Positions 13,398 through 26,063 of a stretch of DNA of 64,000 bases are shown piece by piece; the first letter of the stretch is position 1, and the number at the start of each line of letters is the position of its first letter. The notes below the pieces were generated by a model, which saw nothing but the letters and a program-made list of their open reading frames with translations, made no database searches and was not told the origin of the DNA. The translations under genes were made by a program, and so were the position numbers. The DNA is taken from the NCBI GenBank assembly GCA_020723305.1, contig DYJC01000002.1, positions 1 to 64,000 on the forward strand, written 5' to 3'. The DNA is from Desulfosudis oleivorans (GTDB lineage Bacteria; Desulfobacterota; Desulfobacteria; Desulfobacterales; SURF-7).

Positions 13398-14069
13398 ATG
13401 GCATTAAACAGTTATGAAATTGAAATGGAAATTTCGGGCAATACAGCCATCTGGACCCGGCCTGATACGGGCGACTGCCCTGTCAGTTATCCGTTGCCGA
13501 CGTATTCGGCGGTAAAAGGCATTTTTGAATCCATTCTCTGGGGGCCGGCGGTGCAGATTTTTCCGACAAAGGTTGAAATCTGTACACCTGTTCAATACCA
13601 CAATTATCAGACCAATTATGGTGGACCGCTTCGAAAATCTGGTGTCATAACCGGAGGTGGTGGATTTCAACTTCTGGCAACAGTGCTTATTGATGTCTGT
13701 TACCGGCTTTATGCATCAGTGGTGCCCAACCCGGTCAAGAAACATTTACCGGGAAAGGCGCGGCAATGGGATAGCAAAACGACTTCACCGGGACATGCTT
13801 ACCAGGATATTTTTTATCGACGCCTCAAAAAGGGGCAATGTTTCACCATCCCATTTCTTGGCTGGAAGGAGTTCGGACCGGATTATTTTGGAGCATTCCG
13901 CGAATCAACAAAAGTTCAGGTTGATATCAATATGGATATCTCATCTATGCTACGCGAAGTCTTTCCGGAAGGTTATGCATCAAAATGTGCGTTTACCTAT
14001 GACCAGAATGTTAAGATAAAAGAGGGAGTGATGGCGTTTCCCAGACAAGGAGGTCAATATGTTGAATGA
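13398..14069 (+). CDS. cas5c: Type I-C Cas5 (Cas5c/Cas5d) repeat endoribonuclease
   Basis: Type I-C has no Cas6; Cas5c itself cuts the pre-crRNA repeat and stays bound to the crRNA 5' handle in Cascade. The 223-aa protein matches family length and features: the N-terminal beta strand, the YPLPTYSAVKGIFESILW helix, and the internal glycine-rich turn. The gene starts the operon behind a strong ribosome binding site and overlaps cas8c by 11 nt. No cas6 gene exists in the locus, which supports the processing role. Confidence 0.93.
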   Translation: MALNSYEIEMEISGNTAIWTRPDTGDCPVSYPLPTYSAVKGIFESILWGPAVQIFPTKVEICTPVQYHNYQTNYGGPLRKSGVITGGGGFQLLATVLIDVCYRLYASVVPNPVKKHLPGKARQWDSKTTSPGHAYQDIFYRRLKKGQCFTIPFLGWKEFGPDYFGAFRESTKVQVDINMDISSMLREVFPEGYASKCAFTYDQNVKIKEGVMAFPRQGGQYVE

Positions 14070-16113
14070 GCTTTATCAGCTTTCTTTAACCCTTGAGCGT
14101 GCAGGCATCATTCCCAGAGATTGGCATAAAGATTTAAAGCTTTTGCCAAATGTTAGTTCAAAAAAACCATGTTATCGAATTTTAATCGCTCAAGATGGCT
14201 CCATTGTAGGCATTGAAACCATAAAAAAGGAACTTGCCGTATGTCTCCGTAAGTGGGAACCCAGTAATGGCAGTTCATTTCCTGGATTCAATATTCAACC
14301 GCTTTATCGTGTTTCGGATGAAGCGAGTAAGAAAATCTTAAAAAAATGGCGGGAAGGCAAAGAACTTATTGATTTACAAAAAATCAAGGAATGGTGCGCC
14401 GATGAACAGGCGAAAAACTGGGATGCTAAATTTGGTAAGAAATTGAATAAATGTCTGGGGGTGATTCCTCATGGCCTTCTGGAACGATGTGTTGATATTC
14501 CTATAGAGTATGAACCAGTAAAAAAAATGTGTGAAAGAGTGATTCAATGGGAAAATGCCTGTTCCGAAAAATTCTTTCAGGCCCTGGAATCATACATCTT
14601 GGCGTCTCTTGAAAAAGATGAAAATGCTCAGTCTTTGATTCCTATCCTGTTTCATGAGGGTTCTTTGACAAAGAAACCAGATCAAGATCGCGGTTCAATT
14701 TCGATTTTTATGGATGTGCCGGATTGGAAAGAATTTCCGGTAGCCCATGAAAAAACCATTGAGTGCATCAACGAGCATTTTGTGAACAATTCAAACACAG
14801 ACGGAACCAAGGCTGAAAATGAAACTGATGACGCTTTTGGCAGTCTTATCGACGGTTTTGAAGAAAAACTTCCTGAAGTAAAGCTTCCGGTTATCGGCGG
14901 CGTAAAGCTCCGTGCTATGAACAGCGAATCACAATGCCAGTACCGTTATGGAACGATTGATGCGAAATCTTTTCTCATAGGGGCAGAAAGCCGCAGACGC
15001 GCTAAAGGCGCTCTTGAATGGATGAAAGGTGATGAGCGTGAAGGACAGACGTGGGGAAGGGCTGATGGTAAAGAATTGATTTTTGCATATCCCACAATTT
15101 TGCCAAAATCGCCGCTTAAACTTGTATCCTGTTTAGGAGCAAAAAAATCTGATGACTCAGAAGCGCGGTTTGCAAAATATGCTGAGGATGTCGTTGATAG
15201 CCTGAAAGGACTTGCGCCTTCGCTCAAAGATATTGAGTTGCGAGTGTTTTCACTACGCAAAATGGACAAGGCGCGCACTAAGGTAATTTTTCATCGTAAC
15301 TATTCGGCGCAGCGATTGGCGGATGCAGCAACAGAATGGCAGCAAGGCTGTGAAAATATTCCAAAAATACATATAAAGGCATGGGGTTCAGAAAAAGGAA
15401 AAACCATTCAATCTGAACCGGAAACACCTTTTCCACTTCAGATTGCAGACTGTCTTAATCGTGTTTGGAAATTAGATGGAACGACCAAATCCGAAGTCAA
15501 AGCAATCCATAAATCGGACGGCATTGAGTTGCTGCTGGATGAAACGGCAATTCAGCGCAGGATTCCGCATTTGCTCGCAGTGGCGATACAAAACAGCAAG
15601 GGACTGTTCTTTTCATTGGGACAAAGTATGCATTGCAATGATGTTGTGAAACTCGACGGATTGAATAAACACAAACAATTGATGCCTTCAATTCTGGGTC
15701 TTTTACTCTGGAAACTCGGTATCAGAAAGGAGACGTATATGCACAACGCACCATTTCTTGTTGGCAGAATGCTCAAACTCGCCGACGAAATTCACGCGCT
15801 TTACTGTGAAGAAGTGCGAGGTAATTTGCCGTCACAACTTGTCGGTAATACCTTGATGACAGCGGCGCTGGAAAGTCCAGTTCAGGCGTTGTCCCAGCTT
15901 GCTCTACGACTTAAGCCATACTATGGTTGGGCGCAAACTTTCCGTGGAAACGAGAAAAGCGGACTTGCAGGGTATTATATTTATCTTTGCGGTGAGGTAA
16001 CCTCACAATTGGCCAAATACGAACTCCCGGCTCGATTCAACGATGCAGAGCGGGCACAATTTCTTTTGGGCTATCTTGCGTCAAACCCCAAAAAAGCAGA
16101 AAAACCAAACTAA
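14059..16113 (+). CDS. cas8c: Type I-C Cas8 large subunit (Csd1)
   Basis: Large subunit of the type I-C Cascade, expected to recognise the PAM and help load target DNA. It is 684 aa, a little longer than many Csd1 proteins. The family opening MLNELYQLSLTLERAGIIP is clear. The ATG lies inside the end of cas5c (11-nt overlap), preceded by AAGGAGGTC at unusually short spacing. The last 124 codons contain an internal ribosome binding site and ATG, annotated separately as cas11c. Then 30 nt separate it from cas7. Residues 250-265 (NTDGTKAENETDDA) form a low-complexity acidic insertion that may be a flexible loop. Confidence 0.93.
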   Translation: MLNELYQLSLTLERAGIIPRDWHKDLKLLPNVSSKKPCYRILIAQDGSIVGIETIKKELAVCLRKWEPSNGSSFPGFNIQPLYRVSDEASKKILKKWREGKELIDLQKIKEWCADEQAKNWDAKFGKKLNKCLGVIPHGLLERCVDIPIEYEPVKKMCERVIQWENACSEKFFQALESYILASLEKDENAQSLIPILFHEGSLTKKPDQDRGSISIFMDVPDWKEFPVAHEKTIECINEHFVNNSNTDGTKAENETDDAFGSLIDGFEEKLPEVKLPVIGGVKLRAMNSESQCQYRYGTIDAKSFLIGAESRRRAKGALEWMKGDEREGQTWGRADGKELIFAYPTILPKSPLKLVSCLGAKKSDDSEARFAKYAEDVVDSLKGLAPSLKDIELRVFSLRKMDKARTKVIFHRNYSAQRLADAATEWQQGCENIPKIHIKAWGSEKGKTIQSEPETPFPLQIADCLNRVWKLDGTTKSEVKAIHKSDGIELLLDETAIQRRIPHLLAVAIQNSKGLFFSLGQSMHCNDVVKLDGLNKHKQLMPSILGLLLWKLGIRKETYMHNAPFLVGRMLKLADEIHALYCEEVRGNLPSQLVGNTLMTAALESPVQALSQLALRLKPYYGWAQTFRGNEKSGLAGYYIYLCGEVTSQLAKYELPARFNDAERAQFLLGYLASNPKKAEKPN
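15739..16113 (+). CDS. cas11c: Cas11c small subunit from internal start in cas8c
   Basis: In-frame internal ATG at 15739 (residue 561 of Cas8c) has a strong Shine-Dalgarno AAGGAGA at 15727-15733, 6 nt before it. Translation would give a 124-aa protein beginning MHNAPFLVGRMLKLADEI. In characterised type I-C systems the small subunit Cas11 is made this way from the 3' end of cas8c; that is established knowledge for the family, and the site here is seen directly. The product is mostly helical, as expected. Two copies per Cascade are usual for the family. That this internal start is used in this organism is inferred. Confidence 0.8.
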   Translation: MHNAPFLVGRMLKLADEIHALYCEEVRGNLPSQLVGNTLMTAALESPVQALSQLALRLKPYYGWAQTFRGNEKSGLAGYYIYLCGEVTSQLAKYELPARFNDAERAQFLLGYLASNPKKAEKPN

Positions 16114-16143: not shown

Positions 16144-17031
16144 ATGCCAAACGATATTAAACGAGCTACAGGGCTTTTAATCATTGAAGCCGTGAATTCC
16201 AATCCAAATGGCGATCCCGACCGTGAAAGTGATCCGCGACAGCGCCCGAACGGACTTGGTGAAATTTCGCCGGTTTCTTTTAAACGTAAACTCCGTGATC
16301 TGGTCGAAGATACTGAAGGCTTGGTCTTCAATGATGTATGCAAAAAGCTGAAATTAAATAAGGCAGACTTTAATATTCTTGAATCAAGAGGGCGGGATAG
16401 GAAATCAATTTCTGCTGAAATGAGTGAAGATATAAAGGATTTTAATCAGGAGAAGTTTCTGAATAGCAAGTTTGTTAAAAAATATTGGGATGGCCGTATT
16501 TTTGGGAATACCTTTCTCGAAGAAGGCGGTAATAAGGGATATATCAAAACCGGTGTCGCTCAATTTGCGATGGGGCTTTCGGTTGCTCCCATTCTGATTC
16601 AGCGGCACACCAATACGAATAAGGCCGGTGTAGAGGAAGGCAAAACACAAGGAATGGCGCCCCTGGCTTACCGGGTGGTTGAGCACGGTGTTTACTGCAT
16701 GCCCTTTTATATCAACCCAAGTCATGCGCACAAGTCCGGGTGCACGCAGACAGATATTGATCTGCTTAAAGCGCTCATTCCCTATGCCTACGATCATACC
16801 CGATCAGCCATTCGCCCGGATGTCCGCATTCGCCATGCCTGGTATATGGAACATCAGAATCCGCTTGGCAGTTGCTCGGATTGGAAATTGATTGATGCTC
16901 TCACTCCTAAGCGTAAAGGAGCCGATCCAAAACAACCGTCAAATTCATTGGACGATTACGTTGTTCCCAAAGATCTTCTGGATGAATTGAAATCAAAAGT
17001 AGTTGGATTTTGCGACTTAATGGGGGACTGA
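16144..17031 (+). CDS. cas7c: Type I-C Cas7 backbone (Csd2)
   Basis: Backbone subunit that polymerises along the crRNA spacer in Cascade. The 295-aa protein has the Csd2/Csh2 opening RATGLLIIEAVNSNPNGDP and the conserved internal GRIFGNTF, and ends in a region rich in basic and aromatic residues (RIRHAWYMEHQNPLG). A good ribosome binding site (GAAAGGAC) lies upstream. Only 3 nt separate its stop from cas3, so the two are probably translationally coupled. Confidence 0.93.
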   Translation: MPNDIKRATGLLIIEAVNSNPNGDPDRESDPRQRPNGLGEISPVSFKRKLRDLVEDTEGLVFNDVCKKLKLNKADFNILESRGRDRKSISAEMSEDIKDFNQEKFLNSKFVKKYWDGRIFGNTFLEEGGNKGYIKTGVAQFAMGLSVAPILIQRHTNTNKAGVEEGKTQGMAPLAYRVVEHGVYCMPFYINPSHAHKSGCTQTDIDLLKALIPYAYDHTRSAIRPDVRIRHAWYMEHQNPLGSCSDWKLIDALTPKRKGADPKQPSNSLDDYVVPKDLLDELKSKVVGFCDLMGD

Positions 17032-19892: not shown

Positions 19893-20954
19893 ATGAGAAC
19901 ATTAAAACAGTTCCTATCAGGTATCGATACAATTCCAATCATGACATCATGGTATCTGACCGATATCAGCGAGGCAAAAGGCAAACAGGAACTTTTCAAG
20001 AGCCAGTCTCCGCAAAAACTGAAATCTCTTAAAGAACATGCCTTAATTGAAAGCGCGGTTTCATCGAACCGGATTGAAGGCATCGAGGTTGATAAAAAAC
20101 GCATCGGTACAGTCATTTTCGGCAAATCGCTGCTACATGACCGGGCAGAGGAAGAAGTCCGGGGTTATCGCGAAGCGCTGAATGTTATTCACGACCAGGG
20201 AGCAAACCTGGAAGTTTCGGAAGCTACCTGCAAATATCTGCATCAATTGACACGAGGCGGAATCGGGGATGCGGGTCAGTACAAAAAAAAAGAGATCGAT
20301 ATCATAGAAAAAAAACAAAGTGGCAGATCCAGCATCCGGTTTAAAACTGTTCCGGCGGCCCAGACTGCAGGCTGCATGAAAAATCTGATGAAGTCATGGC
20401 ATGAATGTATCCATGAAACAAAAGTTCCACCTCTCGTGGCCCTGGCTGCATTCAATCTGGATTTTCTGTGCATCCATCCATTTCGGGATGGAAACGGAAG
20501 GGTTTCCCGACTTCTAATGCTGTTGCAGTGCTATCATCTGGGAATCGAAGTCGGAAGATATGTCAGTCTCGAACGGCTGATTGAACAGCACAAGGAAAGA
20601 TATTACGAAACATTGAAACTCAGCTCAGACAGATGGCATTCAGGTGAGCATGATCCCTGGCATTATATCAATTTTGTCTGTTTTATCATCAAAACCGCTT
20701 ACCAGGAGTTTGAAGAAAGACTGGGCCACCAGCATCAGCCTCATGGCGGAAAAACGTCTATGATTCATGATGCCGTGAACGGTTTTTCCGGTAATTTCAG
20801 CGTAACCGATATATTGGGCAAATGCCCTGGCGTTGGTATTGACATGGTCAGGAAGGTTCTCAAAGATCTCCAGAAGCATGAAAAAATCGAATGTCTCGGT
20901 CGAGGCAGAAATGCACGATGGAGTAAAAAAGGGAATTGGGTAATATCGAAATAA
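19893..20954 (+). CDS. Class II Fic/DOC family protein inside the cas operon
   Basis: Fic proteins transfer AMP or another nucleotide part to hydroxyl groups on target proteins. The 353-aa protein has the full Fic active-site motif HPFRDGNGR (H195 to R203) and an N-terminal inhibitory motif SNRIEG (S58, E62, G63), which makes it class II (self-inhibited). The C-terminal 70 residues (SVTDILGKCPGVGIDMVRKVL) look like a winged helix that could bind DNA. It is in the same direction, 10 nt after cas4 and 27 nt before cas1, so it is transcribed with the adaptation genes. Its target and any role in CRISPR are unknown. Comparable stand-alone Fic genes are common in bacteria, so chance insertion is possible. 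Confidence 0.9.
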   Translation: MRTLKQFLSGIDTIPIMTSWYLTDISEAKGKQELFKSQSPQKLKSLKEHALIESAVSSNRIEGIEVDKKRIGTVIFGKSLLHDRAEEEVRGYREALNVIHDQGANLEVSEATCKYLHQLTRGGIGDAGQYKKKEIDIIEKKQSGRSSIRFKTVPAAQTAGCMKNLMKSWHECIHETKVPPLVALAAFNLDFLCIHPFRDGNGRVSRLLMLLQCYHLGIEVGRYVSLERLIEQHKERYYETLKLSSDRWHSGEHDPWHYINFVCFIIKTAYQEFEERLGHQHQPHGGKTSMIHDAVNGFSGNFSVTDILGKCPGVGIDMVRKVLKDLQKHEKIECLGRGRNARWSKKGNWVISK

Positions 20955-20981
20955 TATGGGTAATAAATTAGGTAATAGATC

Positions 20982-22013
20982 ATGAAAAAACACCTGAATA
21001 CGTTGTTCGTAACCACCCAGGGCGCATATCTATCAAAGGATGGGGAAACCGTGGCTGTGAAAGTGGAGCAGGAGGTGCGCCTCCGGATTCCCATCCACAC
21101 CATTGGCGGGATCGTCTGCTTTGGCAATGTTTCCGCCAGTCCTTTTTTAATGGGGTTCTGCGCAAAAAACAACGTCGGCATCAGTTTTCTGACGGAATAC
21201 GGGAAGTTTCTGGCCCGTGTCCAGGGGCCGGTGTCGGGAAATGTTTTGCTGCGCCGGGAGCAGTATCGGCGGGCTGACGACTTGGCATTTTCAGCGGAAA
21301 TGGCAAAGGCGGTCATCACGGGGAAAATAGCCAATTGCCGGACTACGTTGCAGCGGGCTTTGCGTGACCATGCGGACAAAATAGATACGCAGGTGGTTGA
21401 AAAGGCATCCGGTCATCTGTATCAGCATCTTGAAACCATGCAAAAGGATGTACCTCTCGATGTTCTGCGCGGTTATGAAGGGGACTCGGCCCACGCCTAT
21501 TTCAATGTTTTTAATCAACTGATTGTCACACAAAAAGAGGATTTCTTCTTTAACGAAAGGAACCGCCGTCCGCCGCTGGACAATGTCAATTGCCTTTTAT
21601 CATTTATATATACCCTGATGATGCATGATGTCCGGTCAGCCCTGGAATGTGTGGGTCTGGACCCGGCTGTTGGATTTCTGCATCGGGATCGACCTGGAAG
21701 GCCGGGACTCGCCCTTGACCTGATGGAAGAATTCCGCCCATTCATCGCTGACCGGCTTGCGCTTTCCCTGATCAATCTCCGGAAGGTTCAGGCAAAAGGA
21801 TTTCAAAAATCCGATTCCGGGGCAGTGACCATGACGGATGAAACACGAAAAACCGTTCTGGTTGCCTATCAGGAAAGAAAACAGAAAGAGATTTTTCATC
21901 CATTTATTGAGGAAAAAATAACCATCGGTATTTTATTTCATGTCCAGGCATTGCTGCTTGCCCGGTTTTTAAGGAGAGATCTGGATGGTTATCCACCGTT
22001 CTTATGGAAATAG
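20982..22013 (+). CDS. cas1: Cas1 integrase (type I-C)
   Basis: Metal-dependent integrase that, with Cas2, inserts new spacers at the leader end of the array. The 343-aa protein matches type I-C Cas1. Likely catalytic residues are E166 (RGYEGDSAHAYF), H234 (GFLHRDRPGR) and D246 or E249/E250 (LALDLMEEFRP). The start is an ATG after a weak site (AGGTAATAG). It follows fic by 27 nt and precedes cas2 by 56 nt. No reverse transcriptase or other fusion is seen. Confidence 0.95.
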   Translation: MKKHLNTLFVTTQGAYLSKDGETVAVKVEQEVRLRIPIHTIGGIVCFGNVSASPFLMGFCAKNNVGISFLTEYGKFLARVQGPVSGNVLLRREQYRRADDLAFSAEMAKAVITGKIANCRTTLQRALRDHADKIDTQVVEKASGHLYQHLETMQKDVPLDVLRGYEGDSAHAYFNVFNQLIVTQKEDFFFNERNRRPPLDNVNCLLSFIYTLMMHDVRSALECVGLDPAVGFLHRDRPGRPGLALDLMEEFRPFIADRLALSLINLRKVQAKGFQKSDSGAVTMTDETRKTVLVAYQERKQKEIFHPFIEEKITIGILFHVQALLLARFLRRDLDGYPPFLWK

Positions 22014-22069: not shown

Positions 22070-22360
22070 ATGATGGTACTGGTCAGTTATGATGTATCGT
22101 TGACGGATAAAGAAGGAGCAAGACGGTTGCGCCGTGTTGCAAAAGCCTGCAAGGATCATGGTCAGCGGGTGCAATATTCGGTTTTTGAATGTATTGTTGA
22201 TCCGGCGCAATGGGTGAAGTTCCGGTCCCGTCTGGTAAAAGAAATCGATGAAAAGCAGGACAGTCTGAGATTTTACTTCCTCGGCTCCAACTGGGACAGG
22301 AAAATCGAACACGTCGGTGCAAAACCCGGCTTTGATCAACAAGGGCCATTGATTGTCTGA
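22070..22360 (+). CDS. cas2: Cas2 (type I-C)
   Basis: Small ferredoxin-fold protein that scaffolds the Cas1 integrase complex. The 96-aa protein has the typical beta-alpha-beta opening MVLVSYDVS and the family's GQRVQYSVFEC and WDRKIEHVG segments. AGGTG precedes the ATG at 22070, and an adjacent ATG at 22073 is an alternative. It is the last cas gene before the leader and array. Confidence 0.95.
   Translation: MMVLVSYDVSLTDKEGARRLRRVAKACKDHGQRVQYSVFECIVDPAQWVKFRSRLVKEIDEKQDSLRFYFLGSNWDRKIEHVGAKPGFDQQGPLIV

Positions 22361-22544: not shown

Positions 22545-26063
<3,519 letters not shown>

Follow-up and report, generated by a model that had tools for sequence, protein, structure and literature searches.

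Gene organization of the locus

The window, a 64,000-nucleotide stretch of Desulfosudis oleivorans DNA (contig DYJC01000002.1), carries a type I CRISPR-Cas operon with a fic gene between cas4 and cas1. All genes lie on the plus strand in the order cas5-cas8c-cas7-cas3-cas4-fic-cas1-cas2, followed by a CRISPR array:

13398..14069, plus strand: cas5 (type I-C-like); Pfam Cas_Cas5d 39.4 bits; TIGR01876 71.8 bits, below the cut-off of 85
14059..16113, plus strand: cas8c-like gene (divergent Csd1); Pfam Cas_Csd1 29.4 bits (cut-off 27); TIGR01863 22.5 bits, far below the cut-off of 218.65
16144..17031, plus strand: cas7; Pfam Cas_Cas7 180.8 bits
17035..19227, plus strand: cas3, downstream of cas7; Pfam Cas3-like_C_2 and DEAD; TIGR01587 75.8 bits
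19247..19882, plus strand: cas4; Pfam Cas_Cas4 77 bits; TIGR00372 140.2 bits (cut-off 65)
19893..20954, plus strand: fic (type 'FicA'), the guest gene, encoding a class II Fic protein of 353 aa; Pfam Fic; PADLOC SoFic and PDC-S04; nearest PDB chain 8uqu
20064..20081, plus strand: inhibitory-motif codons S58-N-R-I-E-G63; S58, N59, E62 and G63 invariant in a 30-sequence alignment
20475..20501, plus strand: active-site codons H195-P-F-R-D-G-N-G-R203; H195, P196, F197 and D199-R203 invariant in the same alignment
20748..20927, plus strand: predicted C-terminal winged-helix-like part, residues 286-345; from AlphaFold2 helices and strands
20955..20981, plus strand: GGGTAAT/AGGTAAT repeat tail, 3' of the fic stop; from flank comparison
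20982..22013, plus strand: cas1 (type I-C); TIGR03640 522 bits (cut-off 385)
22070..22360, plus strand: cas2; TIGR01573 68.1 bits (cut-off 24.5)
22545..26017, plus strand: CRISPR array with 53 identical 32-nt repeats and 52 spacers; from a pattern count

The model scores point to a divergent type I-C operon, because Cas1 passes the I-C model but Cas8c, Cas5 and Cas7 miss the NCBIfam I-C cut-offs (Cas7/Csd2 119.6 against 182.25 bits). The order in which cas3 follows cas7 (cas5-cas8c-cas7-cas3-cas4) is also found in loci L230, L235, L244, L259 and L273 and may mark a sub-lineage of type I-C. Another arrangement was seen in L241, where a tandem pair of cas5-cas8-cas7 sets precedes a single cas4-cas1-cas2. 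The identity of all 53 repeats suggests that the array was recently active. One of its spacers is present more than once.

The fic gene is separated from cas4 by 10 nt and from cas1 by 27 nt. A small antitoxin gene adjoining fic was considered and ruled out, since these gaps leave no room for one. Among the flanks listed, tails like GGGTAAT/AGGTAAT also stand behind many FicA genes from other genomic surroundings, and behind the fic gene of genome G215. A promoter immediately upstream of fic or cas1 was rejected too, but weakly: a scan gave no plus-strand promoter-like site at 19.2-21.0 kb, and over its full length it gave fewer sites than shuffled sequence (11 against 15.7).

Properties of the Fic protein

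The open reading frame is intact, starts with ATG and matches Pfam Fic with 58.9 bits (cut-off 24). The Fic core motif HPFx(D/E)GNGRxxR is present as HPFRDGNGRVSR from residue 195. The class II inhibitory motif (S/T)xxxEG occurs as SNRIEG at residues 58-63, N-terminal to the core and at the end of a helix (residues 40-61) in an AlphaFold2 model with a mean pLDDT of 87.8 and a pTM of 0.75. The model also supports a winged-helix-like C-terminus. The first-pass annotation, which had placed an intact Fic gene of class II, with these gaps, between the cas4 and cas1 genes and had described HPFRDGNGR at 195, SNRIEG at 58 and a C-terminal winged helix, is confirmed for the gene and its motifs and supported by the predicted structure for the winged helix.

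Among solved structures the closest is 8uqu, a Fic protein from Bordetella bronchiseptica that resembles the window Fic both in sequence (266 bits over residues 22-346) and in fold (35-36% identity and, normalised to target length, a TM of 0.93-0.94). PADLOC models, for which no cut-off is stated, match the window protein as SoFic (112.8 bits over residues 45-278) and as PDC-S04 (61.9 bits, compared to 101.8 bits for the shorter FicB proteins introduced below). The NCBIfam SoFic equivalog cut-off is missed widely, with 49.4 against 550 bits. The window genome (G000) holds eight Fic genes in 5.4 Mb. A grouping of the window Fic with the other seven was rejected, since these are at most 36% identical to it or give no tblastn match, and by the Fic tree.

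Nearest relatives of the window Fic

Relatives with 67-80% identity to the window Fic all lie in CRISPR loci, except L029 (74%). Genome G215, from another family of the same order, has cas7, an IVP-like ORF, cas4 and fic on one contig and the fic tail, cas1 and cas2 on a second. This is the cas4-fic-cas1-cas2 order of the window beside a different effector set: Cas3 and Cas5 are 29% and 25% identical to those of the window, and Cas4, Fic, Cas1 and Cas2 are 69-80% identical. Three named MAG contigs (L030, L031 and L032) have the order effector-fic-cas4-cas1-cas2, and when they are taken together with G215 the identities to the window are only 25-29% for Cas3 and Cas5 and 63-80% for Cas4, Fic, Cas1 and Cas2. 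In G083 the order is fic-cas1-cas2, with a frame-broken fic. G300 and G047 have Bro-N, fic, a truncated cas4 and a scrap of cas2, in this order; the stretch is nearly identical in both (Fic branch lengths 0) and may come from one source. The window Fic lineage mostly lives beside I-C adaptation genes, and its clade keeps the company of cas4-cas1-cas2 while the effector genes change.

In a quick Fic tree of the FicA set (118 rows, the two short rows L018 and L019 left out), seven I-C-linked rows including the window and the unlinked L029 form a clade with an SH-aLRT support of 99, within which G215 is the sister of the window (support 96). Two outcomes that the first-pass annotation had set against a CRISPR link are thus not what was found: the arrangement recurs outside this genome, in G215, and the window Fic is placed with cas-linked Fic proteins rather than with unlinked chromosomal ones. 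The I-E-linked rows L337, L338, L341, L343 and L344, which carried no CRISPR label in this tree, and L210 (I-G) are distant from the window clade, so CRISPR linkage arose more than once. A motif scan of the FicA set found the core pattern absent in L034 and L090 and the inhibitory pattern absent in L022. On the Cas1 tree, loci that bear FicA do not form a single clade (four changes). The shared history of Fic and Cas1, which the first-pass annotation had proposed to look for in the two trees, is therefore seen only in part.

Occupancy of the slot in type I-C loci

A search with I-C Cas1 covered 389 genomes of one order, probably Desulfobacterales, sampled evenly out of a larger set, and gave 68 places in 67 genomes, all of which were annotated by tblastn; the counts come from this one-order sample. 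The slot, defined as the space between the effector genes and cas1, holds FicA in 3 of the 68 loci, FicB (a shorter Fic of 270-280 aa) in 19 and a RhuM-Fic protein in 10. A Fic-domain guest or its remnant is thus found in 32 of 68 loci, and Bro-N and/or IVP-like guests alone in nine further ones. Some recognised guest (Fic, RhuM-Fic, Bro-N or IVP-like) is present in 41/68, and 27/68 are without one (the contig of L263 begins just before cas4). The odd gene of the window is one case of a pattern that repeats: type I CRISPR operons have a definite place for guests where their two halves meet. About half of the I-C loci of this sample have it filled by Fic-domain genes or remnants, and a few other families known from embedded defence also occur there. 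A Bro-N protein occupies the cas4-cas1 gap itself, the site of fic in the window, in L221 (4092-4940) and L222 (6835-7686).

Seven of the 32 Fic-domain guests are broken or truncated (L203, L248, L256, L262, L331, L220 and L232), and a few more are cut by contig ends. Cas1 is full length and stop-free in six I-C loci where Fic or RhuM-Fic is broken, namely L203, L248, L256, L262, L220 and L232. The FicB gene overlaps the start of cas4 by 1-4 nt in 8 of the 13 loci measured. All seven RhuM-Fic guests that were read have a Doc-like HPF[TS]DGNKR motif, and their activity is possibly phosphate transfer. The matching PADLOC models, again without a stated cut-off, were PDC-S23 for RhuM-Fic (418 bits) and PDC-S13 for Bro-N (375 bits). 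A Pfam check of ten representative guests gave no match for the Bro-N-like fragment of L226 and 28.6 bits for the IVP-like guest, which is under the cut-off of 33.8.

Other subtypes, plasmids and viruses

The I-E Cas1 model was searched against 321 genomes of the order and matched at 42 places, spread over 41 genomes; 30 of these places were viewed with flanks of at most 1.5 kb. Counted by eye, Fic lies directly upstream of cas1e in 6 of the 42 (four intact, L379 of G226 with an in-frame stop, and a 75-aa remnant in L355). By the same count, some guest (Fic, Bro-N, YhcG/DUF1016-like or IVP-like) directly precedes cas1e in 18 places, and 24 lack a recognised guest. An NCBIfam check gave Cas5e-Cas6e-FicB-ORF-Cas1e for G219 and Cas5e-Cas6e-FicB, followed by the contig end, for G048. 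The YhcG/DUF1016-like ORFs, named by eye, directly precede cas1e in L361, L362, L372, L394 and L395; in L306 one lies between FicB and the remains of cas1e. For type I-G there is one locus, in G119, where Fic lies upstream of a Cas4-Cas1 fusion followed by cas2. Two places were not counted as linked: L211 (9084-9500, G033), where an I-G-like cas1 remnant about 270 nt after a FicA-family gene indicates a decayed linkage, and L353 (7979-8797, G325), where FicB and an I-E cas1 are about 3 kb apart and FicB adjoins repeat-like sequence, as judged by eye.

Ten of 20 plasmid I-C Cas1 records, all from other orders, were inspected; cas7-cas4-cas1-cas2 are contiguous in these ten loci and none has a guest. 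Plasmid relatives of FicB (four records) and FicA (10 records) are all less than 60% identical, and a plasmid origin was rejected; no cas genes were found near plasmid FicB in the three regions examined (H1, H2 and H4). A phage origin was rejected as well, with 49 relatives on viral contigs that are at most 40% identical and of which none has cas matches to the I-C, I-E and I-G queries.

Genomic settings of Fic genes

Viewed from the Fic side, and again in the order sample, 24 of 41 FicB places belong to cas operons or to what is left of them, 20 of type I-C and four of type I-E, two of the latter (G034 and G141) with cas1e remains only; the other 17 are unlinked to cas. For FicA the count is 11 of 45 places, two of which are halves of one split gene, and the linked genomes are G000, G300, G047, G215 and G083 (I-C), G119 (I-G) and G204, G226, G218, G250 and G315 (I-E). 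Among the 80 FicA relatives kept of 579 from named genomes, only L030-L032 are cas-linked. The two order-sample counts place Fic in cas operons beyond chance, even with eight Fic genes in a 5.4 Mb genome.

In the FicB tree, from which L364, L318 and L315 were left out (short matches were left out of the FicB set), the 19 I-C rows fall in one clade of 25 rows that also includes six unlinked rows. The sister clade of six consists of L305 and L317 (I-E) plus L280, L306, L307 and L308, with L280 and L306 entered as unlinked though they adjoin cas1e remains. With the labels used, linkage needs nine changes on this tree, at least eight of them forced, so FicB genes enter and leave cas operons. Of the 44 members of the FicB set, L283, L287 and L318 lack the core pattern and L315, L318 and L364 the inhibitory pattern (L315 and L364 are partial).

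Outside CRISPR, a restriction, methylase or helicase gene is found no more than three ORFs away in 28 of the 85 FicA-family loci that lack I-C cas genes. The neighbours are HsdR/helicase-like (13), N6-methylase (10), HsdS (8), DUF1156 (7), PLD-helicase (5) and Eco57I/DUF7008 (4), counted by hand from single-linkage clusters of the three ORFs on each side, with nine representatives scanned with Pfam. In four loci fic overlaps the upstream HsdS-cluster gene by 4 nt. This adjacency to restriction-modification genes is the known habit of an 'embedded defence gene'. Other unlinked copies lie among ordinary genes, named by eye (L029 with an adjoining alanine-racemase-like ORF, L316 and L324), so the guest habit is not confined to defence operons.

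Recombination, decay and selection

In L032, L231, L227 and L323 a cas4 stub lies upstream of the guest, with 81-94% DNA identity to the downstream cas4. The stubs suggest that guest and adaptation module may have been brought in together by recombination within cas4. A possible stub in L031 was discarded because its '29% cas4' match is too weak to use. The order is cas4-fic-cas1 in the window and G215 and fic-cas4 in the clade members L030, L031, L032 and G300/G047; a cas4-fic-cas4 intermediate like L032 would account for both. Slot content also differs between close Cas1 relatives: the cas4-cas1 gap holds Fic in G215 and Bro-N in its sister G093 (SH-aLRT 95). The slot can serve as a marker for the movement of adaptation modules between effector sets.

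Fic and cas genes decay independently. In L321, which has the order cas4-FicB-cas1, cas4 is interrupted by stops and cas1 is a fragment, with an intact Fic between them. Fic is likewise intact in L204 and L327, where cas4 is truncated and the contig has no cas1, and beside the cas1e remains of L280 and L306. The pN/pS of fic between the window and G215 is 0.17, the sole one of 15 FicA pairs that could be computed, the others running into a stop. For FicB it is 0.15-0.30 (median 0.26, 36 pairs), which is close to the 0.14-0.31 of cas4 from the same loci and higher than the 0.06-0.22 of cas1. These ratios indicate that the fic genes are under purifying selection and kept as working proteins. Such selection only shows that the protein works; it does not tell for whom.

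Relation to known systems

Embedding of single defence genes in other immune operons is known, and a 2024 preprint by Payne et al., cited in PMC12988326 and PMC12255303, is said to treat embedded single-gene defence candidates under the term 'guilt-by-embedding'. The 'PDC' genes are tied to this approach in PMC12988326. The guests described here are likewise single genes nested co-directionally in another immune operon and match PDC-S04, PDC-S23 and PDC-S13; nesting is repeated within one immune system, in 32/68 I-C and 6/42 I-E loci. What differs is the host, which is CRISPR-Cas, and the site, where effector genes meet adaptation genes, in three subtypes of type I. PADLOC names the nested Fics as putative defence enzymes by their model matches.

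SoFic is described in passages of PMC12249575 as an abortive-infection defence that acts by AMPylation. The window protein shares with it the class II type, the inhibitory N-terminal helix and a C-terminal domain; its PADLOC SoFic score of 112.8 bits has no stated cut-off to be set against. In the fold search it reaches 17-18% identity with SoFic structures from Shewanella; it lies far under the NCBI cut-off and is nested in cas genes. A toxin-antitoxin module embedded in restriction-modification genes also sits between the genes of another immune operon, but belongs to another enzyme family, has an antitoxin gene and has a restriction-modification host instead of CRISPR. PrrC is an anticodon nuclease kept inactive by the restriction complex that it guards. 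The window protein is a Fic enzyme and not an anticodon nuclease, and the likeness to PrrC is in position and proposed logic only. CreTA, according to parts of PMC10097628 and PMC9458426, is a toxin-antitoxin guard of type I CRISPR-Cas; it resembles the guests in that a toxin module accompanies a CRISPR locus of type I, but its toxin is an RNA held by a CRISPR-like RNA, whereas the guest is a protein gene.

No report of Fic genes inside cas operons was found in the titles and abstract openings searched. Passages of PMC11150851, PMC13335696, PMC10910872 and PMC12737573 contain no link between Fic and cas operons, and in the first of these, a type I-C paper, a passage of the discussion names a host-acting streptococcal Fic.

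Possible roles of the nested Fic

Fic and a few other families make recurrent use of the joint between effector and adaptation genes, and several roles can be considered for the enzyme found there. With moderate confidence we regard Fic as a self-inhibited guest of the abortive-infection type that travels with the adaptation module and is not required for spacer acquisition. To judge from the gene spacing, fic would share a single transcript with cas4 and cas1 by read-through. The N-terminal inhibitory helix would keep the protein inactive until phage infection, or failure of a host immune complex, sets it free. The freed enzyme would then AMPylate an essential host protein and growth would stop, as passages of PMC12249575 propose for SoFic. 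The slot is an observation, the abortive-infection function an inference. Because class II Fics are also able to remove AMP, according to parts of PMC13327609, a two-way switch (AMP on and off) is possible for the nested Fic by analogy.

The first-pass annotation had read position and spacing as a sign of co-expression with spacer acquisition. The position does suggest co-expression, but a specific tie to acquisition does not follow, given the unrelated guests, the 27 of 68 loci with no recognised guest and the independent decay. A direct role in acquisition is unlikely because other families fill the slot, because the RhuM-Fic guests have a GNKR motif and because full-length Cas1 occurs beside broken Fic. 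A required role is disfavoured by the unrelated guests, by the broken Fic in loci with full-length cas1 and by the intact Fic in decayed loci. Most likely the guests are defence genes that ride along as passengers and do not belong to the memory machinery.

We regard a guard role as possible, though rather unlikely. Here an intact Cas complex or normal cas expression would quiet Fic, and a phage that disables CRISPR would cause cell death. The position inside the operon, the recurrence in types I-C, I-E and I-G, the class II self-inhibition motif, the relatives near type I restriction genes and the precedent of CreTA (in the passages of PMC10097628 and PMC9458426) are in agreement with such coupling. 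However, Fic is intact in the ruined loci L321, L204, L327, L280 and L306, where its release should be costly, which speaks against strict coupling, and 27/68 I-C loci lack a recognised guest.

It is about as doubtful that Fic is no more than a passenger, a mobile gene that inserts into closely packed genes of one direction and does nothing for CRISPR or defence. Where modules are swapped, their joint would be prone to recombination, as the cas4 stubs indicate; unrelated families share the slot, unlinked copies occur among ordinary genes, and FicB linkage needs at least eight changes with the labels used. An idle passenger is difficult to reconcile with purifying selection, with the conserved active site and inhibitory motif, and with the lack of guests in all ten plasmid I-C loci of other orders.

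A speculative extension, slightly less probable again, is that Fic or the Doc-like RhuM-Fic acts as a 'second fuse' that is quieted by a running CRISPR system and freed on phage block, an abortive-infection backup in types I-C, I-E and I-G. Adaptive immunity has been proposed to be coupled to programmed dormancy. If the Fics in these operons give protection from phage, or react when CRISPR fails, this coupling becomes testable beyond RNA-based guards. The guests already provide a concrete and testable link of CRISPR-Cas to toxin-like enzymes, comparable to the guards nested in restriction operons.

Improbable is a regulatory role in which Fic AMPylates Cas1, Cas2 or Cas4 and so tunes adaptation. 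The genes cas4 and cas1 are direct neighbours of fic, FicB start and stop codons overlap with cas4, and the window Fic clade tracks the adaptation genes. Yet the slot also takes guests that lack a Fic domain, as well as RhuM-Fic with its Doc-like motif, the six loci with broken Fic or RhuM-Fic keep a full-length, stop-free Cas1, and the distant I-E and I-C Cas1 proteins both gain Fic guests.

A chance insertion of one stand-alone Fic gene, the simplest alternative for the first-pass annotation and conceivable in a genome with eight Fic genes, can be dismissed as a one-off event by the same arrangement in G215, by fic-cas4-cas1-cas2 in L030-L032 and fic-cas1-cas2 in G083, and by the Fic-domain guests in 32 of 68 I-C loci. 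A likely course is that the gene was inserted and then spread along with the adaptation module.
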